From assembly GCF_030378205.1 (NCBI RefSeq), contig NZ_CP127385.1, positions 1,211,001 to 1,275,000 of the forward strand: a stretch of 64,000 bases of DNA, written 5' to 3'. Positions 2,418 through 64,000 of this stretch are shown here, piece after piece (position 1 is the first letter of the stretch; each line of letters begins with the position of its first letter). Below the pieces are notes generated by a model. The model was not told where the DNA came from, ran no database searches, and worked only from the letters and a program-made list of their open reading frames with translations. The translations under genes and the position numbers were made by a program. Source of the stretch: Bradyrhizobium sp. NP1 (GTDB taxonomy: Bacteria > Pseudomonadota > Alphaproteobacteria > Rhizobiales > Xanthobacteraceae).

Positions 2418-3020
2418 ACGACAATCCAAGAAGAAAAGTTATGAAAATATGAATCGTTTCAACTCTGCTGACGGCAAGCTCCATCGCTTTTAAGCTCGAT
2501 GGACACAAGCGCAGTCGTCTGCGCGTGCGGGTCTGAACGCAACATCCGAGACTTGAGCTAGGATTTCCCGCCGATGTCCACTTTCAGGGGAAAGGCGGAC
2601 ATGCGGCGACGACACCGGAACGTCGCCTTTTTGAACCCCAAACAGACATCGCTAGGTACGAGTGTCCCGAATCCGAAGTTCGCATCATTTTGCGGCGAGC
2701 TCTCTTGCGAACTTCGGATTCGAAAGGACACTAGCAAGCTTATGATCCTAGTGTGGTTTTGGTTCGGAAGTTCTCTTGATGAACTCGCAGCACAGATGAA
2801 GAGAACTTCCGAACCACCACACCAGGCCGTAAACCCATAAATCTGCCGGGCGGCGGCGTGCGAGGTCCGCTATGCCCCGATAGCCGACTTATTGTTGCAC
2901 AGCAGCGCAACGACGCTTTGTGCCATTACCGGAAGTGAAAAGCTTTACTCAATCACCTCGTCGGCAGCGACCAGCAGGTCCGGCGCGTTTCCCTAATTGT
3001 GGTGGCGGACGGCATGGCGC
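2418..3020. other. Gene-poor stretch with decayed sequence and repeat
   Basis: No believable gene. It holds a short tract near 2570-2620 with the look of decayed Bradyrhizobium intergenic sequence, the double-hairpin element at 2661-2822, and near 2941-2995 (minus strand) a fragment reading PDLLVAADEVIE followed by a stop. That ending is typical of the C-terminus of ABC-transporter substrate-binding proteins (LLARADEVIE). The 88-codon frame across 2574-2840 runs through the hairpins and is not a gene. Confidence 0.55.
2661..2822 (+). repeat. Double-hairpin intergenic element, copy A
   Basis: Hairpin 1 pairs 2661-2667 with 2726-2732 (7 bp) and 2668-2684 with 2706-2722 (17 bp, perfect), with an AAA bulge at 2723-2725 on the 3' arm. 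Hairpin 2 pairs 2751-2757 with 2816-2822 (7 bp) and 2761-2777 with 2799-2815 (17 bp, perfect), with a TTT bulge at 2758-2760 on the 5' arm. The linker reads CAAGCTTATGAT. ACACTAG (2728-2734) can also pair with CTAGTGT (2748-2754), so the base of hairpin 1 competes with a linker hairpin. Three further copies occur in this window. Confidence 0.9.
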
Positions 3021-5723: not shown

Positions 5724-6899
5724 ATGAGGAAGCAGACTCCATTAATAGCTTTCGCCATTTTCATGCTCTCTGCAGGGATCGCACACGCTCAGTTTCTGTT
5801 CTGGCCCCAGTACACGTCCTGGCCAGGCCATTACGCTCCGTTCAAACACAAGCACCACCACCGGCGGACAAACTCTGAATTGGCGAAAAACGCTCGGCCC
5901 GAGGACCCTCCGAAGGGCCCGCTCCAGATCATCATCTCGATTGCAGACCAACGGGTCTCGCTTTTTGACAACGGGACCCTGATCGCACGCTCTTCGGTGT
6001 CCACGGGAACTCAGGGGCATCCTACGCCCCACGGCGTATTCAGCGTGATCAGCAAACAGCGATGGCACCGTTCAAATATTTATAGCGCTGCCCCCATGCC
6101 CTACATGCAGCGCATCACCTGGTCAGGGATAGCGTTGCATGCCGGTGTTGTGCCTGGGCGTCCGGCGTCACACGGCTGCATCCGTTTGAAAAATGACTTT
6201 GCCATTCGACTCTGGCATCTCACGAAGCGCGGCACTCGAGTGATCATTGCGCACGACGATGTCCAGCCTGTCGAGATAACCAATCCGCACCTTTTTAAGC
6301 CGAAAGCCGTGTCCGGTTCGCCGGAATTTCAGACTGCCACAGTCGCGGGTAAGAGCATTAGCACAGCCGCGGCAACGCATGGATCACCAGTGTCCAACGC
6401 CGAGACTCCAGAAGCCACTAGTCTCCAGGTTCCAGGCTCGGCTCCTGCTGGAGTCGCACCTCAGAAGGTCGTCCCGATCTCCATCTTCGTGAGTCGTAAG
6501 TTGAGCAAGCTCTTCGTGCGCCAGGGCTTCACGCCGTTGTTTGATGTCCCGGTCACGATCGAAAATCCGGGGGAGCCGCTGGGAACGCACGTGTTTACCG
6601 CAATGGAATTCCAGAACGAGCGAGCGGCCATTCGCTGGACCGTCGTGTCGATTCCGGAGGAATTTCCTCGCATTTCCGAGGGGGCCACGAAAGAGCGCGA
6701 AGCGCCCGCGAAGCAAACCGCCCTATCGGTACCGTTGCCCGATAAAGCCAACGCTGCCCTCGACCGCATCGAAATACCCCGGGATACGGTTGAGAGGATC
6801 TCTGAACTACTGACGCCGGCCTCTTCATTGATTATTTCCGACAACGGATTTAGCCATGAGACGGGAAAAGACACGGATTTCATCGTGGTGACGCATTGA
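5724..6899 (+). CDS. L,D-transpeptidase (YkuD) with a second degenerate YkuD-like half
   Basis: The 391-residue protein has a signal peptide (1-22, cleavage after AHA) and a His-rich patch (KHKHHH). A YkuD domain at about 67-185 carries the signature SHGCIRL, with H150, G151, catalytic C152 and R154, plus upstream H139. YkuD enzymes make 3-3 crosslinks in peptidoglycan or attach proteins to it. A second region, about 250-300, repeats the opening of the same fold (PISIFVSRKLSKLFVRQGF...DVPVTI...LGTHVFTAM) but has no HGC motif, so it is probably non-catalytic. This two-part layout is seen in rhizobial relatives. There is no operon partner. Confidence 0.87.
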   Translation: MRKQTPLIAFAIFMLSAGIAHAQFLFWPQYTSWPGHYAPFKHKHHHRRTNSELAKNARPEDPPKGPLQIIISIADQRVSLFDNGTLIARSSVSTGTQGHPTPHGVFSVISKQRWHRSNIYSAAPMPYMQRITWSGIALHAGVVPGRPASHGCIRLKNDFAIRLWHLTKRGTRVIIAHDDVQPVEITNPHLFKPKAVSGSPEFQTATVAGKSISTAAATHGSPVSNAETPEATSLQVPGSAPAGVAPQKVVPISIFVSRKLSKLFVRQGFTPLFDVPVTIENPGEPLGTHVFTAMEFQNERAAIRWTVVSIPEEFPRISEGATKEREAPAKQTALSVPLPDKANAALDRIEIPRDTVERISELLTPASSLIISDNGFSHETGKDTDFIVVTH

Positions 6900-7202
6900 T
6901 GCGGCGGCGCAACCCACCAACACACGATGCCGCTGCGCAAGTCCGCTTTTCTTCCACGGGTTTAACCCGAACGACCTCGTGGTCTGAGAAAATTATGTCC
7001 GTTGTCGGTCTGCTCGTCATTAAGCCGATGTCTCGGATGGGTCATTCGCGACTGGGGCGAGCCGGCGGCGAGTCCGGTCACGTCCGCTGCGCCGCCGAAA
7101 GCGGAAGTCAATACAGAGCATTAGCGACATGGTGACGGGGGCATTGCGGGTTGATGGCGCTGCCCAAGACGTGATTCAAGCTCCGAACCGGAGCCTCGAA
7201 TC
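6900..7202. other. Intergenic decayed repeat sequence
   Basis: No gene. The stretch around 7015-7110 has the motif order (GATGTCTCGGATGGGTCATTC ... GTCCGCT ... AGCGGAAGTC) found in decayed Bradyrhizobium intergenic sequence. The last bases before 7203 may include the left end of the insertion sequence, but I cannot define a terminal repeat. Confidence 0.4.
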
Positions 7203-22624: not shown

Positions 22625-22635
22625 CACCGGGCCTT

Positions 22636-22795
22636 GGTGTCGCGATTTCGAAGTTCGCATCATTCTGCGGCCGCCAGTTTGCGAACTTCAGGAATCGAAG
22701 GACATTGTCAACTTATTGATCTAGTGTGGCTTTGGTTCAGAAATCCGCATGGCGAACGCGCGGCGACAAAGATGCGGGCTTCTGAACCACCACCC
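22636..22795 (+). repeat. Double-hairpin intergenic element, copy B
   Basis: Hairpin 1 has the core pair 22650-22659 with 22680-22689 (GAAGTTCGCA/TGCGAACTTC). The linker CAACTTATTGAT is at 22709-22720. Hairpin 2 pairs 22734-22750 with 22772-22788 (17 bp with two mismatches), with a TTT bulge at 22731-22733 on the 5' arm and an outer GTGTGGC/ACCACC pair. The layout is that of copy A but the hairpin 2 stem is different. It lies between the end of pduO and the start of etfB. Confidence 0.85.
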
Positions 22796-22898
22796 AGGGC
22801 CGATTTTTAGCCTTGCGCGCGTTGACCGGGGTTGGCGGGCGCTTTAGGTTCCGCGCAAAGCACAGCAAACCCCGACATTTTCAAGCGAAAGAGGATCG

Positions 22899-28230: not shown

Positions 28231-28506
28231 GTGAATCGCAAACTGAGCCCGGCGTCTTCGGGAGGGGCCATCATTCTCTTGTGCGCGGCGCTGCTCGCGC
28301 TGTCCGGCTGCGGCCGCAAGGGGCCGCTCGACCTGCCGCCGGGCGCGCCATCGCCGACGGCCAACGCCGCGCCGACCGATACCGCGGCGGACAACGCGAA
28401 CAAACAGACCGTCTTCAATCCGAATTACGGCAGCGCCGACCCTTCGATGAGCGCGCCGAGAGGCAAGAAGCGCCCGTTCGCTCTCGATCCGCTTCTCGGC
28501 AACTGA
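28231..28506 (+). CDS. lptM: LptM-like small lipoprotein
   Basis: The 91-residue protein starts at a GTG (28231). It has a lipoprotein signal with lipobox LSGC and then the family signature GCGRKGPLDLPPGAP, where the lipidated cysteine begins the mature protein. LptM (formerly YifL) is known from E. coli as a small lipoprotein that helps the LptD/E lipopolysaccharide translocon mature. The location between argH and lysA is conserved in alphaproteobacteria. The rest is polar and disordered, ending with KKRPFALDPLLGN. The symbol is by family similarity. Confidence 0.82.
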   Translation: MNRKLSPASSGGAIILLCAALLALSGCGRKGPLDLPPGAPSPTANAAPTDTAADNANKQTVFNPNYGSADPSMSAPRGKKRPFALDPLLGN

Positions 28507-28513
28507 TCTCGAC

Positions 28514-28679
28514 GAGTGCCCGCTTTCCGAAGTTCGTGATATATATGCCGCGCTCTCGCACACGAACTTCGGAAAGCAAGGGCACTCGCAAGACTATGAT
28601 TCTGGTGCCGCTTTTCGATCTGAAGTTCCTGAGATGAATTTGCGGCGCCCGGTGCAGGAACTTCAGATCGGCGGCACTA
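28514..28679 (+). repeat. Double-hairpin intergenic element, copy C
   Basis: Hairpin 1: 28514-28521 with 28580-28587 (8 bp) and 28522-28538 with 28561-28577 (17 bp, perfect), with an AA bulge on the 3' arm. The linker CAAGACTATGAT is at 28589-28600. Hairpin 2: GTGCCGC near 28605-28611 with GCGGCAC near 28671-28677, and 28617-28631 with 28655-28669 (15 bp, perfect), with a TTTTC bulge on the 5' arm. It fills the space between lptM and lysA almost exactly, ending 10 bases before the lysA start. Confidence 0.9.
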
Positions 28680-28688
28680 GAGCTTGAG

Positions 28689-29954
28689 ATGAACCATTTC
28701 GACTATCGCAACGGCGTGCTGCACGCCGAGGCGGTCAATCTGTCCGATCTGGCGCAGGCGGTGGGCACGCCGTTCTACTGCTACTCGACCGCGACGCTGG
28801 AGCGGCACTACCGCGTCTTCACCGAGGCGTTCGCCGGCGAGAAGGTGCTGGTCTGCTACGCCATGAAGGCGAATTCCAACCAGTCGGTGCTGCGCACGCT
28901 GGCGAAGCTGGGCGCGGGCGCCGATGTGGTCTCGGGCGGCGAGCTGAAGCGCGCGCTCGCAGCCGGCATCCCGCCTTCAAAGATCGTGTTCTCCGGTGTC
29001 GGCAAGACCGAGGCCGAGCTGCGCGCGGCGCTCGCGGCCGACATCCTCTGCATCAACATCGAGTCCGAACCCGAGCTCGAACTGCTGTCGCGCCTTGCCG
29101 CCGAGACCGGCAAGACCGCGCGCATCTCGGTGCGGGTCAATCCGGATGTCGATGCCGGCACCCATGCCAAGATCTCGACCGGCAAGTCCGAGAACAAGTT
29201 CGGCATCCCGCTGTCGCGCGCCCGCGAGGTCTATGCGCGTGCCGCGAAGCTGCCGGGCATCCAGGTGAGCGGCGCCGACATGCATATCGGCAGCCAGATC
29301 ACCGAGCTTGGCCGCATGGAGACCGCGTTTCGGCTGCTGGTCGAGTTCGTGCAGGACCTGCGCGCCGACGGCCACACTATTTCCCACATCGATTTCGGCG
29401 GCGGCCTCGGCATCCCCTATTACATGGACCGCGAGGCGCCGCCGGCGCCGGACGCCTATGCCGCGATGGTCAAGCGGGTCGCGCACAATCTCGGCTGCAT
29501 GCTGATGTTCGAGCCGGGCCGGCTGATCGTCGGCAATGCCGGCATCCTGGTTGCCCGCGTGATCTATGTGAAGCACGGCGATGCGAAGAATTTCGTGATC
29601 ATCGACGCCGCGATGAACGACCTGATCCGCCCGACGCTCTACGAGGCGCATCACGACATCCTGCCGGTGGTCGAGCCCGCCGCCGGCGCGCGACGAATTG
29701 TCGCCGACGTGGTTGGGCCGGTCTGCGAGAGCGGTGACTACCTCGCGCTCGACCGCACGCTTCCCGAGCCGAAGCCCGGCGATCTCGTGGCGATCATGAC
29801 CGCCGGCGCCTATGGCGCGGTGCAGGCGGGCAGCTACAACACCCGGCCCCTGGTGCCGGAAGTGCTGGTCAAGGGCGACCAGTATGCCGTGGTGCGCCCG
29901 CGCGTCGACGTCGATGCGCTGATCGCGATGGACAAGCCCGCACCCTGGCTGTGA
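28689..29954 (+). CDS. lysA: Diaminopimelate decarboxylase
   Basis: The 421-residue PLP enzyme makes lysine from meso-diaminopimelate. The PLP lysine is K60 in VCYAMKANSNQ. HIGSQI, the glycine-rich phosphate site ISHIDFGGGLGIPY, EPGRLIVGNAG and the late CESGDYLALDR (cysteine from the other subunit) are present in family order. It starts 10 bases after a double-hairpin element, so that RNA structure could affect its translation. It ends two bases before the convergent gene at 29956. Confidence 0.96.
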   Translation: MNHFDYRNGVLHAEAVNLSDLAQAVGTPFYCYSTATLERHYRVFTEAFAGEKVLVCYAMKANSNQSVLRTLAKLGAGADVVSGGELKRALAAGIPPSKIVFSGVGKTEAELRAALAADILCINIESEPELELLSRLAAETGKTARISVRVNPDVDAGTHAKISTGKSENKFGIPLSRAREVYARAAKLPGIQVSGADMHIGSQITELGRMETAFRLLVEFVQDLRADGHTISHIDFGGGLGIPYYMDREAPPAPDAYAAMVKRVAHNLGCMLMFEPGRLIVGNAGILVARVIYVKHGDAKNFVIIDAAMNDLIRPTLYEAHHDILPVVEPAAGARRIVADVVGPVCESGDYLALDRTLPEPKPGDLVAIMTAGAYGAVQAGSYNTRPLVPEVLVKGDQYAVVRPRVDVDALIAMDKPAPWL

Positions 29955-36921: not shown

Positions 36922-37296
36922 TTAGCTGTTCCGCGACGCCAGCGCGTCCGCAACGGCGGTACGGATGTCCGCCACCGAGAACGGCTTGGTGATCACGTCA
37001 TGCGCGATCGCCTGAAGGTTGGACGCGCGCTCGCGCTGGTCGGCATAGCCGGTCATCAGGAGGATCGTCAGCCTGGGAAAGTCGCGCGCCGCGGACAGCG
37101 CGAGCGCGATCCCGTCCATCACGGGCATCTGGATGTCGGTGAGCAGCAGCTCGAAGGCGCCCTCTTCGCGGATCAGGATGTCCAGCGCCTCGGCGCCGTC
37201 CTGCGCGGTGACGGTTTCGTGGCCGTCCATCGCGATCGCGCGCGCGACCAGCAGGCGCATCGGCTCCTCGTCGTCGGTGATCAGGACCCGCGCCAC
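36922..37296 (-). CDS. cpdR: Single-domain response regulator CpdR
   Basis: The 124-residue receiver-only protein has acidic pocket D8/D9 (LITDDEE), the phosphoacceptor D54 (LLLTDIQMPVMDG), the Thr in LLMTGYADQRER, and Lys in HDVITKPFSVADIR. Length and sequence match CpdR, which in Caulobacter, when unphosphorylated, localises ClpXP and primes cell-cycle protein degradation. It begins with GTG. It lies seven bases after the zinc-ribbon gene, and both are divergent from ftsEX, a conserved neighbourhood in this group. Phosphorylation by the CckA-ChpT relay is known for the family, not shown here. Confidence 0.88.
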   Translation of the reverse strand: MARVLITDDEEPMRLLVARAIAMDGHETVTAQDGAEALDILIREEGAFELLLTDIQMPVMDGIALALSAARDFPRLTILLMTGYADQRERASNLQAIAHDVITKPFSVADIRTAVADALASRNS

Positions 37297-37303
37297 GGCG
37301 GCC

Positions 37304-38119
37304 TCACGCGCTGTTGCCGGCGAGGTCGCGCCGGTTGAAGAAGCGGATGTCGATGTTGCGCCCCTCGGGCGGCGGAGAGGCGAGGCGCGACTTGAACAGG
37401 GCGCGCTCGCCGGGTTTCAGCACGGTCTGGTCGAGTACGGCGTTCCAGGCATAGATTTCGGCGCCCTGCGCGTCCCGCACCGAGAAGCGCAGCCGCGGCA
37501 GTTCCACCGCCTTGCGGGTCTGGCCGACAATCACCCCCTCGATCACCAGCACCGGCTTGCCTTCGACGGTCTCGGTTGTGATCCTGACGTCCTTGAATAC
37601 GACGCCGCGAAGGTTCACATCGAGCCCGACCATCCGGTAGAAGGAGGCGGTCTGCGGCAGGAGGCGGACGACGTCGGCGCGCCAGACGATCAGCGCGACG
37701 ACCAGCGCAGCCATGCCGGCGCAGGCGGTCGGCAGGCCGATATTGGGCGTCAGCCACGAGAAAAGGCCTGAAAGGCGCAGGCGGCGCCGGCGGGGTGAGC
37801 CTGGTATGCCCTGCCAGTCGTCCTCGGCGTCACGGGTTGCCGCGGAGGGCCAGTCGGCCGCAATGGAGGGGCTGTCGATCACCGGCGCCTCGGGCTCGGG
37901 CTCGTCGCGGGTATGGGTGTCCCAGCCCGGCGCCGACACGCCCGTCGTCGGCTCGCCGGCTTCCGCCAGGGCAGGTTCCGGGGCCGGCTCGATTGCATCT
38001 TCCGGCCGCGCCAGCCAGACCTCCTTGCAGCGGGAGCAGCGGACAGTCCGCCCCTCCGCGCCGAGAGTAGCCGGGTTGATCGCATAGGAAGTCGTGCAAT
38101 GAGGGCAAACGATGTGCAT
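37304..38119 (-). CDS. MJ0042-type zinc-ribbon and DUF3426-like membrane protein
   Basis: The 271-residue protein opens with MHIVCPHCTTSYAINPATLGAEGRTVRCSRCKEVWLA, a zinc ribbon with CxxC at 5-8 and CxxC near 29-32. A disordered acidic/proline stretch follows, then one membrane helix (near 133-150, ACAGMAALVVALIVW), then a domain of about 115 residues resembling DUF3426. That domain contains VNLRGVVFKDVRITTETVEGKPVLVIEGVIVGQTRKAVELPRLRF and PGERALFKSRLASPP. The role is unknown; the ribbon lies in the cytoplasm and the C-terminal domain outside. It is co-transcribed with cpdR. Confidence 0.85.
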   Translation of the reverse strand: MHIVCPHCTTSYAINPATLGAEGRTVRCSRCKEVWLARPEDAIEPAPEPALAEAGEPTTGVSAPGWDTHTRDEPEPEAPVIDSPSIAADWPSAATRDAEDDWQGIPGSPRRRRLRLSGLFSWLTPNIGLPTACAGMAALVVALIVWRADVVRLLPQTASFYRMVGLDVNLRGVVFKDVRITTETVEGKPVLVIEGVIVGQTRKAVELPRLRFSVRDAQGAEIYAWNAVLDQTVLKPGERALFKSRLASPPPEGRNIDIRFFNRRDLAGNSA

Positions 38120-38146
38120 GGAGCCTGTTCTCCACCAATGAGGCGA

Positions 38147-38312
38147 CTGGTGTCCGCTACCGGCGCTTGTATCCCTTTGCAGCGGGCGCTTTTACAAGCG
38201 TCGGGAGCAGAGGGACACCAGCAACTCTATGATTCCAGTGAGGCTTTGGATTTGACGTCCCTACGGATGACCCGCCGCGATGCCGATAGGAACGTCAAAT
38301 TCGCCACACCGG
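38147..38312 (+). repeat. Double-hairpin intergenic element, copy D
   Basis: Hairpin 1: 38147-38155 with 38213-38221 (9 bp, perfect) and 38156-38171 with 38193-38208 (16 bp, two mismatches), with a purine bulge on the 3' arm. The linker CAACTCTATGAT is at 38222-38233. Hairpin 2: GTGAGGC near 38238-38244 with GCCACAC near 38303-38309 (one mismatch), a TTT bulge at 38245-38247, and GGATTTGACGT with ACGTCAAATTC. The stem sequences differ from copies A-C, but bulges and linker are kept. It lies in the divergent zinc-ribbon/ftsE gap. Confidence 0.88.
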
Positions 38313-38445
38313 TCAAAAACCGGCAAACGCAATGCTACAAGCCGACCGTTAACGAATCGGAAACCATAACCGACGCAAAACCGGTGAGGTTTCCGGCCGC
38401 CGGGTCACGCGCACCGGCCGCCCCACGCCTCGAACGGAGCTGACC

Positions 38446-39105
38446 TTGGTCCGGTTCGAAAATGTCGGATTGCGTTACGGGCTCGGCCCGGAGATTTTGC
38501 GCGACCTCTCCTTCGAGATCCCCGCCCACTCCTTCCAGTTCCTCACCGGCCCGTCCGGCGCCGGCAAGACCTCGCTCTTGAAACTGCTGTTCCTGTCGCT
38601 GCGGCCGACGCGGGGGCTGGTCAACCTGTTCGGCAACGACGTGTCGCTGCTCGGCAAGGACGAGATCGCCGACCTGCGCAAGCGGATCGGCATCGTGCTG
38701 CAGGATTTCCGCCTGCTCGACCACATGACGACCTACGAGAACGTGGCGCTGCCGTTCCGCGTGATCGGCCGGGACGAATCGAGCTACCGCAAGGAGGTCA
38801 TCGACCTCCTGAAGTGGGTCGGGCTCGGCGAGCGCATGGATGCGCTGCCGCCGATCCTGTCCGGCGGCGAGAAGCAGCGCGCCGCGATCGCGCGCGCGGT
38901 GATTTCGCGCCCGCAATTGCTGCTGGCGGACGAGCCGACCGGCAATGTCGATCCGACGCTCGGGCGGCGGCTGCTGCGGCTGTTCATCGAGCTCAACAAG
39001 CTGGGCACCGCGGTGATCATCGCGACCCACGACATCACGCTGATGGACCAGTACGACGCAAGGCGGCTGGTGCTGCATCAGGGACGGCTGCACATCTATG
39101 AATAG
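38446..39105 (+). CDS. ftsE: Cell division ATP-binding protein FtsE
   Basis: The 219-residue ABC ATPase works with FtsX at the division site to control peptidoglycan hydrolases. Walker A is GPSGAGKTSLLKLL (about 38-45), the Q loop QDFRLLDHMTTYENVALPFRV, the signature LSGGEKQRAAIARAV, and Walker B LLLADEPTGNVDP. The start is TTG at 38446, supported by GGAG at good spacing; no ATG alternative matches. The last eight bases overlap ftsX. Upstream lies double-hairpin copy D, which would be within the 5' leader if the promoter is further up. Confidence 0.94.
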   Translation: MVRFENVGLRYGLGPEILRDLSFEIPAHSFQFLTGPSGAGKTSLLKLLFLSLRPTRGLVNLFGNDVSLLGKDEIADLRKRIGIVLQDFRLLDHMTTYENVALPFRVIGRDESSYRKEVIDLLKWVGLGERMDALPPILSGGEKQRAAIARAVISRPQLLLADEPTGNVDPTLGRRLLRLFIELNKLGTAVIIATHDITLMDQYDARRLVLHQGRLHIYE

Positions 39106-40066
39106 GAACGAGACACGGCGTCCCCTGGTCGACCTCGGACATGAACGTCCGCAGGTGCCGGTGCGCGCCCGCAACCTGTCGCCGATCGTGCCGCGTGCCT
39201 CGATCGCGGGCCGCGCGCTGGTCGCGGTGGTCGCGATCATGACCTTCCTGGCGTCGGTCACGACCGGCACCGTGCTGCTGGTGAGCGCCTCGGCCGCCGA
39301 ATGGCAGTCCGATGTCGCAAGCGAGATCACGATCCAGGTCCGTCCGCAGGCCGGGCGCGACATCGAGCGCGACGTGGCTGCCGCGAGCGCCGCGATGCGC
39401 GGCCAGTCGGGGATCGTCGAGGTCAAGCCCTTCACCAGGGAGGAGTCGGCGAAGCTGCTGGAGCCGTGGCTCGGCAGCGGCCTGTCGCTCGACGACCTGC
39501 CGGTGCCGCGGGTGATCATCGCCCGGGTGCAGCCCGGCACCCCGCTCGACCTCGTGGCCCTGCGGGCGCGCCTGGCGCAGGCCGCGCCCACCGCCAGCGT
39601 TGACGATCACCGCGCCTGGATCGAGCGGATGCGCTCGATGACGGGCGCGACCTTCGCGGCCGGCCTCGGCATCCTGGCCCTCGTCATCGTCGCCACCATC
39701 ATCTCGGTGTCGTTCGCCACCCGCGGCGCGATGGCGGCGAACCGCCCGATCGTCGAAGTCCTGCATTTCGTCGGCGCCGGCGACCGCTACATCGCCGACC
39801 GGTTCTTCTGGCACTTCCTCCGCCTGGGGCTGGAGGGGGGCCTGATCGGCGGCGGCTTCGCGATGCTGTGTTTCGGCTTTTCGGAATCGATCGCCACCTG
39901 GTTTTCAGGCACCCCGATCGGGGATCAGTTCGCCGCGCTGTTGGGGACATTCTCGCTGCGGCCTTCCGGCTATCTGGTGCTGGCGATCCAGGCCGTGTTG
40001 ATTGGCGCGATCACCGCCTGGGCGTCGCGGCGGACGCTGTTCGCCACCCTCGACGAGATCGAATGA
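39098..40066 (+). CDS. ftsX: Cell division protein FtsX
   Basis: The 322-residue inner-membrane partner of FtsE has a cytoplasmic N-tail (about 1-45), a first helix (AGRALVAVVAIMTFLASVTTGTVLLV), and a periplasmic loop (ECD, about 72-190, with QAGRDIERDVAAASAAMRGQSGIVEVKPFTREES). Three more helices follow, including LGILALVIVATIISVSFATRG and LVLAIQAVLIGAITAWASRR. The ATG overlaps the ftsE stop region by eight bases, so translation is coupled. The following YdcF and acyltransferase genes complete the usual alphaproteobacterial ftsEX run. Confidence 0.93.
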   Translation: MNRNETRRPLVDLGHERPQVPVRARNLSPIVPRASIAGRALVAVVAIMTFLASVTTGTVLLVSASAAEWQSDVASEITIQVRPQAGRDIERDVAAASAAMRGQSGIVEVKPFTREESAKLLEPWLGSGLSLDDLPVPRVIIARVQPGTPLDLVALRARLAQAAPTASVDDHRAWIERMRSMTGATFAAGLGILALVIVATIISVSFATRGAMAANRPIVEVLHFVGAGDRYIADRFFWHFLRLGLEGGLIGGGFAMLCFGFSESIATWFSGTPIGDQFAALLGTFSLRPSGYLVLAIQAVLIGAITAWASRRTLFATLDEIE

Positions 40067-42356: not shown

Positions 42357-42478
42357 TTGACAAAATTGCTGGTCAAAGGGTCGCGCCATGGCCGATACCA
42401 TGGCCAGTGGTCCGATTGTAACATTCGCATGCCGCACGGAAGGCACGCTTGCGAATGCTGGCAGCGAAAGACCACTGG
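42357..42478 (-). repeat. Long hairpin element, possible diverged double-hairpin copy
   Basis: CCAGTGGTC (42404-42412) pairs perfectly with GACCACTGG (42470-42478), with an inner CATTCGCA/TGCGAATG pair (42422-42429 with 42450-42457). Next to it are a CCATGG-GCCGATA-CCATGG stretch and a small stem made of CCTTT...AAAGG around 42351-42380. Read on the minus strand the order large hairpin, short palindrome, second hairpin resembles copies A-D, but the CAA..TATGAT linker is missing. It lies in the chaC/DUF2125 divergent gap. Confidence 0.5.
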
Positions 42479-42509
42479 CAAGTTTCAAAGTTACAGGCGG
42501 AGCCGGGAT

Positions 42510-43736
42510 TTGACGTTCGCATCCGAGAACCACGGCGAGCCAGGGGCGGACATCAGGTCCGCTCCACAGTCACCGCGCCGGCGCCCGCTCTGGGGCCTGT
42601 TCATTGCACCCGCTCTCCTTCTCATCGCCGCGATCGCCTGGAGCGCATTCTGGTTCTTTGCCGCCTCGCAGGTCGATGTGCAGGCGGATGCCTGGCGGGC
42701 CCGTGAAGCGAAATCCGGCCGCGTCTATGATTGCGCCAGGCGGTCGGTGGCCGGCTACCCGTTCCGGCTCGAGATCCGCTGCGACGGTGCGAGCGTATCG
42801 CTGGTCGCGCAGACCGCGGGCGCAACGACGCCGGTCACCGCCAGGCTCGGCGAGATCCTCGTGGTCGCGCAGGTCTATGATCCGAAGCGCGTGATCGCCG
42901 AATTTGCCTCGCCCGCGACGATCACCGATCGCGGCGCCGCCTCCTTCGCCGTCAACTGGAGCAAGGGCCGCAGCAGCATCGTCGGCCTGCCCGACATTCC
43001 GGAGCGCGCCTCGATCGTGTTCGACAATCCGGCCATCGAGCGCGTCGAGGGATCGGTGCAAACGCCGCTCGCGAACGCCTCCCATGTCGAGCTGCACGGG
43101 CGTCTGGCTGGAGGCTCGGTTGCCGATCACCCGGTCATCGAGACGGTCGCCAGGATCGAGGGCGGCAGCGTCAAGGGATTGCATCCGCTGCTTGCCGAAC
43201 CGTTCGACGTCGACGCGCGCATGATGCTGAGCGGGTTGAAGGACTTTTCGCCAAAACCCTGGCCGGAGCGGTTTCGTGAAATCCAGGCTGCCAACGGCCA
43301 CGTCGAGGTGGTGCAGTCGCGCATCCAGCAGGGCGACCTGGTGGCAGTCGCGGCCGGCACCCTCGGCCTGAATGCGAACGGACGCATCGAGGGCGAATTG
43401 CAGATGACGGTCGCCGGCCTCGAGAAGGTGATCCCGGCGCTGGGCATCGAGAAGATGCTCGACGAAGGCGTGCCGCAGGCGACGCTCGATCGCGTCGCGC
43501 CCGGCGTGAAGACCCAGGACATCAACAACCTGTTCGGCGCGCTCGACCGCGCCATTCCCGGGCTCGGCAAGATCGTGAAGCAGAATGCCGGCGCGGGCGT
43601 TGCGGCCGGCATCAATTCGCTCGGCAGCGAGACAGTGCTCGAGGGCAACAAGGCGCGGTCGTTTCCGCTGCGCTTTGTCGACGGCGCGGTGTTTCTCGGC
43701 CCGCTGCGCGTGGCGCAAGTGCCTCCGCTGTTTTAA
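42510..43736 (+). CDS. DUF2125 domain protein, envelope
   Basis: The 408-residue protein is assigned from the TTG at 42510 with GGCGGAG upstream; the earlier frame crosses the hairpin element and has no homology. One membrane helix lies at about 31-55 (LFIAPALLLIAAIAWSAFWFF). The DUF2125 part opens with WRAREAKSGRVYDCARRSVAGYPFRLEIRCDGASVSL, with its two conserved cysteines, and continues as long beta-rich sequence to the end (FPLRFVDGAVFLGPLRVAQVPPLF). Proteins of this family are AsmA-like envelope proteins of unknown role. It is divergent from the chaC gene. Confidence 0.85.
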   Translation: MTFASENHGEPGADIRSAPQSPRRRPLWGLFIAPALLLIAAIAWSAFWFFAASQVDVQADAWRAREAKSGRVYDCARRSVAGYPFRLEIRCDGASVSLVAQTAGATTPVTARLGEILVVAQVYDPKRVIAEFASPATITDRGAASFAVNWSKGRSSIVGLPDIPERASIVFDNPAIERVEGSVQTPLANASHVELHGRLAGGSVADHPVIETVARIEGGSVKGLHPLLAEPFDVDARMMLSGLKDFSPKPWPERFREIQAANGHVEVVQSRIQQGDLVAVAAGTLGLNANGRIEGELQMTVAGLEKVIPALGIEKMLDEGVPQATLDRVAPGVKTQDINNLFGALDRAIPGLGKIVKQNAGAGVAAGINSLGSETVLEGNKARSFPLRFVDGAVFLGPLRVAQVPPLF

Positions 43737-49439: not shown

Positions 49440-49629
49440 CTTCAAAACGCCTTCGATGCCGGCTTCTTGCGCATGCGCGGCCGGCGATCACCGACCCTGC
49501 TTAGGAAAGACGGGCGCCGAAAGCAAAGAGAAACATCGACGGCGGCTGCCAGCCGTGCCGTGGCGGCGGGTCGTTAACCACCGGCTTGCCTTGACGAAAA
49601 GGCCGCCAGCCTCTACTTTCGTCCTGTTC

Positions 49630-49684
49630 CGTGGTCATTTGAGCCGGCCGGCTTGCAGCCACGTTAAAAAACTCGCTAAACAGG
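49630..49684 (+). ncRNA. SAM-II riboswitch upstream of metX
   Basis: The sequence follows the SAM-II consensus: CGTGG (49630-49634) pairs with CCACG (49659-49663) to form P1; the loop carries TCATTTGAGCC; GCTTGCAG comes just before the P1 3' strand; then ACGTTAAA and ACTCGCTAAACAGG give the pseudoknot part. SAM-II is the class typical of alphaproteobacterial metX/metA leaders. High SAM should turn down methionine synthesis. The start of the transcript is probably just upstream of 49620. Confidence 0.9.
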
Positions 49685-49730
49685 CCGGGGGACGTTATCC
49701 CGGCCGAACCTTTGTTCAGGCCGGGTTTTT
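49683..49730 (+). terminator. Attenuator hairpins linked to the SAM-II riboswitch
   Basis: CCCGGCCGAAC (49699-49709) pairs with GTTC-A-GGCCGGG (49714-49725), followed by TTTTT (49726-49730): a strong intrinsic terminator. CCCGGCC can pair instead with GGCCGGG at 49683-49689, which overlaps the last bases of the riboswitch core. The two hairpins exclude each other, so SAM binding can decide between read-through and termination. A third hairpin (GGGGTC...GACCCC, 49747-49761) lies close to the start codon. Confidence 0.78.
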
Positions 49731-61218: not shown

Positions 61219-62715
<1,497 letters not shown>

Positions 62716-62934
62716 GATCCTTCAGATCCGCGTCATGCAGATCTATCGGATCGTTTTAGAAACATCAGGGGCCAATGATCGCCAGATCATTGAGCTCCAT
62801 TGGCGGGATTTCGCCGTCTTCGTTTCTCTTTCTTCGCGGACGAACACGCGCCAGGGGCTGCGCTTGTGCGATTGCATCCGGCGCGAGCCGGTCGCGCATG
62901 CAGGGCTCCGAATCCCGAACGGGATTAGCGTAAG

Positions 62935-63011
62935 GGGCTTGTAGCTCAGTTGGTTAGAGCGCGCGCTTGATAAGCGTGAGGTCGGAAGTTCAAGTCTTCC
63001 CAGGCCCACCA
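62935..63011 (+). tRNA. tRNA-Ile (GAT)
   Basis: The 77-base tRNA includes an encoded CCA. The acceptor arm GGGCTTG pairs with CAGGCCC (one G-U pair), followed by discriminator A. The anticodon loop is TTGATAA with GAT at 62969-62971. The D and T arms are intact (GTAGCTCAGTTGG, GTTCAAGTC). It lies in the 16S-23S spacer. Confidence 0.97.
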
Positions 63012-63086
63012 TCTTTGATCGAGTGCGCAGTCTCCCTGCCTGAAGGGGTGCATCTCAAGCGACCGAGGCATTCGTCTTCTGGTTAC

Positions 63087-63162
63087 GGGGCCATAGCTCA
63101 GCTGGGAGAGCGCGTGCTTTGCAAGCATGAGGTCGTCGGTTCGATCCCGTCTGGCTCCACCA
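63087..63162 (+). tRNA. tRNA-Ala (TGC)
   Basis: The 76-base tRNA includes an encoded CCA. The acceptor arm GGGGCCA pairs with TGGCTCC (one G-U pair). The anticodon TGC is at 63120-63122 in the loop TTTGCAA. Second spacer tRNA, 75 bases after tRNA-Ile, as usual for alphaproteobacteria. Confidence 0.97.
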
Positions 63163-63523
63163 GATGGTTGATCGTCGATCGGTCAAATTCTCGTCCGCGA
63201 AAACATCAATTCGCACGCGTCGTCCTCACCAGGACAGCGCTGTGCGTGATTTCTGACATCGTAAAGAGGAGATCGATCCGAGTTGGATCGTGCAAGCAAT
63301 TGCGCGACCCTTCACTATCTCCAGGTCATTTCGGCGCTCGCTCATCGTGAGATGAGCGAGTTGTAAATGATCCTGTTAGCGAAGCTTGACCGCCTCGCTA
63401 TCGGTTCGATCTTACGAAGCAAGCTGGTCTTTCTAGTCAGTGTCCGGCCGCGCCATTCGCCTTCATCGAAGGTGTTGTCGCGGCATGCATTCTGCCGAGT
63501 GTGTGGACATTGATAATGAGAGC
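63163..63523 (+). other. Second part of the 16S-23S spacer
   Basis: No gene. It carries a perfect ten-base hairpin CTCGCTCATC/GATGAGCGAG (63337-63346 with 63351-63360) and a TCTGACATCGTAAAGAGGAG stretch that may be a boxA/antitermination or processing signal. The remainder probably folds with the 23S 3' flank, outside the window. Confidence 0.5.
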
Positions 63524-64000
63524 AATCAAGTGCCTTAAGGGTGTTCGGTGGATGCCTTGGCGCTGAGAGGCGATGAAGGACGTGCTACGCTGCGATAAGC
63601 CGTGGGGAGCTGCGAAGAAGCTTTGATCCACGGATTTCCGAATGGGGAAACCCACCTTCGATAGCCGGAACTCCAAGACCTCAGGTCGACTGACCTGAAG
63701 GCTTGGGGCTTGACCAGAAATGATCGGGACCAAGTCTCATAGGTTTAGAACCTGGAGGTTTTGGATTTCCGGTTATCAAGAGAAGGTATGAGACTTCTGA
63801 ATACATAGGAGGTTTCAAGCAAACCCAGGGAACTGAAACATCTAAGTACCTGGAGGAAAGGACATCAACAGAGACTCCGGTAGTAGTGGCGAGCGAACCC
63901 GGACCAGGCCAGTGGCACATCAAAGACAACCGGAACCTGTCAGGAAAGCAGGGCCTCAGAGGGTGATAGCCCCGTACGGGTAATGCGATGATGTGTCCTC
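63524..64000 (+). rRNA. rrl: 23S ribosomal RNA, 5' part
   Basis: Starts about ATCAAGTGCCTTAAGGG and continues through GTTCGGTGGATGCCTTGGCG, CCGAATGGGGAAACCCACC, GGGAACTGAAACATCTAAGTACC and GTAGTGGCGAGCGAACCCGG. Cut by the window end. It contains an insertion in helix 9 (see below). The first base is an estimate. Confidence 0.96.
63659..63780 (+). other. Helix-9 intervening sequence in 23S rRNA
   Basis: Between CGAATGGGGAAACCCACC and TTCTGAATACATAGG, where E. coli has a short hairpin, this gene has about 120 bases. They fold as a long stem: 63660-63680 pairs with 63757-63777 (21 bp with three wobble or mismatch positions), with an inner TCAGGTC/GACCTGA hairpin at 63681-63698. In many alphaproteobacteria, including Bradyrhizobium relatives, this extension is cut out by RNase III, giving a separate 5.8S-like fragment. 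Confidence 0.82.

Follow-up and report, generated by a model that had tools for sequence, protein, structure and literature searches.

The double-hairpin repeat described here is a unit of about 165 bp, running from CTAG to CTAG, and is very probably a non-autonomous miniature mobile element (MITE) with ends of the IS630 family (Tc1/mariner). It was noticed in the window, i.e., the whole 64,000-nucleotide stretch of Bradyrhizobium sp. NP1 DNA that was analysed, where an earlier note had listed a structured mobile repeat among its possible identities. Near-identical young copies in a relative, the CTAG ends, empty sites in related genomes and the IS630-type ends all support that identity.

In the element, one hairpin occurs twice in inverted orientation, and between the two copies lies a linker, usually of 12-14 nt, that resembles CAAATTTATGATT. 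Each hairpin stands on a foot of CTAG and about five or six variable positions; a TTT-like bulge interrupts the arm that faces the linker, and the upper stem has 15-17 bp. Both loops are asymmetric and retain a GCSGC-like core. Subfamilies are set apart by their feet (CTAGTGTCC, CTAGTGCCC, CTAGTGGTC, and CTAGTACCC), and in the consensus the three bases next to CTAG are identical across all four arms. A switch had been suggested in which ACACTAG at the base of hairpin 1 pairs with CTAGTGT at the base of hairpin 2. The two feet are complementary, but this is not independent evidence of a switch: all four arms have similar CTAGTGT-like feet, and the alternative pairing arises because hairpin 2 repeats hairpin 1 in inverted form.

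We built a covariance model (R1) from 11 copies in the element's own genome and used it to place the copies in the window (Table 1). The four copies in the earlier note are real, each being found by R1, but they are not the total, as the model adds a weak fifth. The positions first given for the four were right as loci and left out a few bases of the CTAG-like ends. The shared orientation of the copies holds within the window but not across the genome, where 125 distinct copies were extracted, 68 on the + strand and 57 on the - strand. Fold energies of the four originally described copies are 3.9 to 9.7 SD below those of mononucleotide shuffles (200 each).

Table 1. Copies of the double-hairpin element in the window, and the parts of copy A.
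Feature	Positions	Strand	Description	Basis
Copy A	2658..2825	+	Whole double-hairpin element	R1, 193.0 bits
Copy A, hairpin 1	2659..2734	+	Foot CGAGTGTCC (mutated CTAG); upper stem; loop with TGCGGCG; bulge on 3' arm; foot GGACACTAG	Sequence, fold
Copy A, linker	2735..2747	+	CAAGCTTATGATC	Sequence
Copy A, hairpin 2	2748..2825	+	Foot CTAGTGTGG; T-run bulge on 5' arm; upper stem; loop with CTCGCAGCA; foot CCACACCAG	Sequence, fold
Copy B	22633..22798	+		R1, 124.8 bits
Copy C	28512..28680	+	Predicted genes: left ends at 28506, right begins at 28689	R1, 154.0 bits
Copy D	38146..38312	+		R1, 147.7 bits
Copy E	42403..42570	+	Weak fifth copy, hairpin 2 decayed	R1, 55.5 bits, E 4.3e-12; fold

The 125-copy set was drawn from the best 150 of 247 aligned rows (both strands), with overlaps merged and eight copies added by coordinates. 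The R1 scan of the own genome gave at least 150 rows from the best 150 of 3075 candidates scored, so that the total may be higher. Some R1 rows, mostly weak, partial or tandem, lie outside the set, and eight of these were used solely in the comparison of flanks. Tandem or clustered copies occur in the own genome (G000) at G000:C1:1196485-1198024, 43033-43529, 6748-7082, and 261859-262187. Several adjacent copies have a single CTAG in common, as would result from insertion of the element into its own ends.

The element is not confined to this genome. A search with the covariance model, as had been proposed, found R1 matches in 11 of 41 genomes, all of them among the 25 genomes of the genus. Across the Alphaproteobacteria, matches were found in at least 20/385 genomes and at least 17/276 genera, with the best seven candidates per genome scored. 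The exact end pattern occurs in at least 118 stretches of a collection of 84,980 species. The 80 matches listed, many of which are metagenome bins, include Bradyrhizobium, Afipia, Nitrobacter, Xanthobacteraceae, Hyphomicrobium, Caulobacter, Phenylobacterium, Magnetospira, Parvularculaceae, and others. An R1 match (E up to 1e-8) accompanies the pattern at 72 of these 80 loci, some weak or cut by a contig end, and is absent from the other eight. A metagenome-bin contig titled Conexibacter (L362, JAOPZA010000116.1) carries the end pattern and has no R1 match at E up to 1e-8; mis-binning is possible.

The clearest signs of recent movement come from one relative (G010), which carries seven copies with 98-100% identity along a unit of exactly 165 bp that starts and ends with CTAG. 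Another relative (G004) has one copy that is 97% identical to them. The G010 copies end in CTAGTGTCCCGAATCCGAAG and CTAGTGTGCTGAATGCGAAG; they are short, contain no gene, and are bounded by terminal inverted repeats, as is expected of a MITE. Their 40-bp flanks all differ, and in a BLAST comparison the 3-kb loci around four of them have nothing in common but the element. A young G010 copy had no match in plasmid records.

Empty sites were sought by searching the joined flanks of seven own-genome insertions against 98 genomes of the genus and reading the best 30 loci. At locus 3511669, the element is absent from all 20 relatives read. The junction in these relatives is a single CTAG in eight, TTAG in seven, CTAA in two, and TAAG, TAAC and CCGG in one each. 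The eight with a single CTAG are clean empty sites, from which the copy in the own genome differs by the element and a duplicated target. The junction sits at the end of the same gene, and both CTAG and TTAG preserve its TAG stop. At the three other loci for which relatives were read, CTAG stands at the junction in 1/9 (0/7; 1/1, with an adjoining 9-nt gap; and 0/1), and therefore the ancestral site was not recovered there. Six loci, giving seven pairs, hold the element in the same orientation in two or three species. Some insertions are therefore old. Nine pairs had at first appeared to be orthologous; L041/L140 and L054/copy D were dropped as their copies lie in opposite orientation relative to the flanks. 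These are two intergenic spots at which two species carry oppositely oriented copies, one of them being window 36941-39796 (copy D) and its counterpart L054 in the relative G015. They represent either separate insertions with repeated use of a site, or an inversion.

The outer ends tie the repeat to a known transposase family. Two loci of G015 (L263 and L266) hold an IS630 element of 1196 bp, again from CTAG to CTAG, identical at 1194/1196 positions and with differing 20-bp flanks. Its transposase is intact, has 360 aa, and matches the NCBIfam model for IS630 (NF033545, E 1.3e-81). The ends of this element are CTAGTGTCCTGAATCAGAAGTTCG and CTAGTGTCCTGAACCAAAAGTTCG. At a threshold of at least 18/24 positions, they are matched by 64/125 left ends and 28/125 right ends of the repeat, with up to 22/24 identical, and the young G010 copy matches at 22 and 21 of 24. 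As a control, 2/308 other CTAG 24-mers reach the threshold, and both are ends of further R1 matches (L134 and L102). G010 also has an IS630 remnant with the same kind of end. A scan of G010 for the end pattern gave 15 places, namely the 14 ends of the seven copies and the one degraded IS630, and the reversed pattern gave one; beyond that remnant, the scan found no gene-bearing element in G010 with the same ends.

Terminal CTAG is present at 76/125 left ends and 82/125 right ends, and at both in 54 copies, in keeping with a TA target. Passages of PMC2170065 describe IS630-family elements as inserting at TA and duplicating it, and a title in its reference list (Tenzen and Ohtsubo, 1991) speaks of a preference for TA in CTAG. 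TA rather than CTAG would be the part duplicated here, although with CTAG at both ends a duplication of TA alone looks the same as one of CTAG. We suggest that an IS630-type DDE transposase, acting in trans, would bind to the outer inverted repeats (CTAGTGTCCYGAATCMGAAGTTCG-like), excise the unit and reinsert it at the TA within a CTAG, so that the inserted copy has CTAG on either side. Each of the two hairpins would be an end repeat closed on itself. The stems drift while their arms stay matched, perhaps partly through templated correction of the palindrome at the DNA level.

Several observations sit less easily with this mechanism. The own genome, despite holding by far the most copies found, has no IS630 (DDE_3) match, nor one to DDE_5 (IS701), so that it may have lost the mover. 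Of 30 IS630 loci, 11 yielded an end pair, and no end among these matches the TGGTCC or TACCCG subfamilies. A plain DDE element needs just two outer ends, so a MITE origin does not account for the conservation of the second hairpin, the bulge, the core of the loop, and the linker.

A CTAG target has consequences for the genes next to the repeat. Among genes that face inward to a copy, 44/115 stop in its terminal CTAG, against 30/354 C-TAG stops among other genes, and a neighbouring gene's stop lies within the element's end at 41/125 copies. Outside the copies CTAG is rare (164 in 469 kb), and 28 of these are at stops as placed by the first of two gene callers. Many insertions lie exactly at gene ends because CTAG is rare in the genome and a good part of the CTAGs are TAG stops. 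Insertion at such a stop would place the unit exactly at the gene end and recreate the stop. Through this, an abundant repeat has altered the 3' context of many genes in its own genome, right at their stop codons. Both gene callers returned the same 44/115 and 41/125; the first put one copy inside a gene and the second, which was trained, put none, though by eye it may assign the wrong strand to the gene left of copy B. As to whether copies are strictly intergenic, a check that had been proposed, 0/125 lie inside a gene predicted by a home-made codon caller. We also compared strand with replication, as had been advised, and found no bias between the chromosome halves (35 + / 25 - and 33 + / 32 -), which are rough replichores set from GC skew.

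That the stems differ between copies and still pair had been taken as compensatory change and hence as selection on structure. The compensatory change is clear. Pairing holds in 95.1% of the 576 cells of the 11 own-genome copies; with shuffled partners the share is 87.3%, with 0/500 shuffles as high, and with slid partners it is at most 43.0%. Double-sided changes occur in 24/53 pairs. A larger set of 53 sequences (43 from named genome records, five from other relatives, and five from the own genome) pairs in 97.8% of 2540 cells, with double changes in 39/48 pairs; again 0/500 shuffles are as high, and slid partners reach at most 41.1%. In this larger set, the pairing structure was predicted from the same alignment that was scored, and 43 of the sequences were hand-picked from R1 matches in the 80 loci fetched by the exact outer-end pattern, such that most share the end on one side.

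Selection on structure does not follow from this. The element could be a functional structured RNA (a 3'-UTR stabiliser, a terminator, an RNase III substrate, or a small-RNA family) whose hairpins are under selection and whose dispersal is secondary, and the very strong covariation, the GCSGC-like core kept in both loops, and an inward gene end within 60 bp of 71/125 copies all speak for such a role. So does the excess of double changes among the seven orthologous pairs. Of their 824 gap-free cells (six loci, not all independent, with each pair counted in both directions), 708 are unchanged. Pairing survives in 26 with both sides changed and in 27 with one side changed, and is lost through a single change in 56 and through a double change in 7. 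With 9% of sites changed, as observed, independence predicts about seven double changes in total. Breaks are also common, and the 56 one-sided breaks outnumber the 27 one-sided changes that keep pairing, which counts against an RNA role. Under constraint on a single RNA strand, G-U would be expected to outnumber A-C on that strand; once the reverse complement is treated in the same way, no such difference is seen: subfamily sums are G-T 182 and A-C 116 against 176 and 115 for the reverse complement, and class-wide counts are 28 and 25 against 36 and 28. A first count in the own copies (G-T 159, A-C 66) was set aside once the reverse complement gave 235 and 91, the apparent G-T excess being a product of the way in which the fold program chooses pairs. 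The linker consensus lacks a T run. Copies are not enriched between convergent genes (21/123 against 51/267 background neighbour pairs; for divergent pairs the values are 31/123 and 52/267), and the occurrence in 11/41 genomes is patchy. From the sequence data, we found no positive evidence that the unit acts as a terminator, in RNA processing or as a small RNA. A structured RNA is thus an unlikely explanation, and we do not read the covariation as proof of RNA function; a mutational cause or a constraint at the DNA level is at least as likely as RNA selection.

One orthologous locus (L291/L293) may illustrate a DNA-level cause. A patch in the 3' arm of hairpin 2 differs between the species, and in one of them the two arms pair perfectly, with no bulge left. 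The pattern resembles templated correction of the palindrome over a whole patch; it was seen at one locus, and the change may have run in either direction. It is conceivable, as a tentative proposal, that the hairpins are themselves the working form: IS630-type ends would fold as DNA hairpins or cruciforms for movement or silencing, and their stems would be renewed by templated correction, giving RNA-like covariation without RNA function. If this is true, DNA-level processes can counterfeit the covariation normally taken as proof of RNA structure. The repeat provides a natural experiment on whether palindrome correction, and not RNA selection, can produce strong covariation: a single genome holds more than 100 copies, the stems differ between subfamilies, and several species carry orthologous copies.

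Movers other than an IS630 transposase fit the data poorly. Mobilisation as a folded single strand by a Y1 (HUH) transposase, as with IS200/IS605 ends or with REP/BIME and RAYT, would fit the hairpins, in which a bulge lies close to a conserved tetranucleotide foot, and the own genome has two Y1_Tnp matches. Such a mover is nevertheless extremely unlikely, as G010, with the freshest copies, has no Y1_Tnp candidate, the replichores show no strand bias, the consensus has no unpaired GTAG tag, and the outer ends match IS630 repeats. Two Y1/RAYT-like genes lie at L009 and L010 (G000:C1:1466708 and 5441865). A frame in L010 starts MGKAKRAHH, which we take to point to another kind of palindromic repeat found in the genus. 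Descent from the IS701 family (DDE_5) was for a time convincing, by the CTAG target and the TTTGG spacing. IS701 elements of the genus also run from CTAG to CTAG and start with CTAGCACTACTTTGG, like the inner arm of hairpin 2 (CTAGTGnnGCTTTGG), and several subfamilies of the repeat keep the same TTTGG-CTAG spacing in that arm. We dropped this origin once the IS630 ends were found and now consider it very unlikely: the outer ends, which are the moving ones, lack TTTGG and match IS630 instead, and G000, G004, G006, G012 and G013 carry copies and have no DDE_5 match. The IS701 elements themselves (L203, L206, L210 and L211, in G015 and G005) are CTAG-ended with CTAGCACTACTTTGG inverted repeats, and thus two unrelated transposase families share a rare target.

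Palindromic repeats have been described in related and in distant bacteria. RIME elements of Rhizobium are intergenic and contain two large palindromes, and the Correia (NEMIS) elements of Neisseria are processed by RNase III. The CcrM-associated intergenic repeats (CIR) of Caulobacter and Brucella are cited to Chen and Shapiro (2003). By shape, CIR are the nearest described kind that our element resembles, as judged from review descriptions only (passages of PMC2229807 and PMC10969869): both are alphaproteobacterial, intergenic and repeated, with two arms (long inverted repeats) and a linker, and with TA termini. As listed there, CIR differ in being about 110 bp long, against about 165 bp, in being given without terminal inverted repeats where our element has IS630-type ones, and in having GANTC at the loop. 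GANTC falls in the loop region of 26/125 copies of our element (by an approximate cut); anywhere in the copy, it has a mean of 1.55 against 0.67 in shuffles.

By its ends and target, the element appears to work like RUP of Streptococcus pneumoniae (IS630-Spn1) and other IS630-type MITEs. Sections of PMC2229807 present RUP as short and intergenic, with a TA target, IS630-like ends and a proposed movement in trans. RUP is 107 bp long, with a 9-bp end repeat, and belongs to another phylum, and the same sections ascribe arms and a linker to CIR alone. Correia/NEMIS elements share short length, end repeats and TA termini; in the account of PMC2229807, however, their stem-loop comes from pairing of the two ends, without arms or a linker, and they belong to another organism. 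The palindromic intergenic repeats described in Bradyrhizobium are of another kind. These are the GTAG/CGTC REPs, often inverted dimers (in passages of PMC3733652), and Br-REP1 and Br-REP2 (in passages of PMC5082802). REPs are described there as 20-40 bp long with an unpaired GTAG or CGTC tag, whereas our unit has about 165 bp and paired CTAG feet, and we therefore rejected membership in REP/BIME (RAYT). Four exact pieces of Br-REP1/2, taken from PMC5082802, occur in 0/125 copies and nowhere in the window.

In open-licence PubMed Central full texts we recognised no description of the element. An Rfam scan of the window, a check that had been called for, gave no match above the gathering score at the copies. 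Five further own-genome loci, searched to E 1, gave 25.5 bits at best, to a microRNA family with a cut-off of 60. Elsewhere in the window, the Rfam scan identified a SAM_alpha riboswitch at 49621-49700, and a 16S rRNA, two tRNAs, and the start of a 23S rRNA at 61219-64000.
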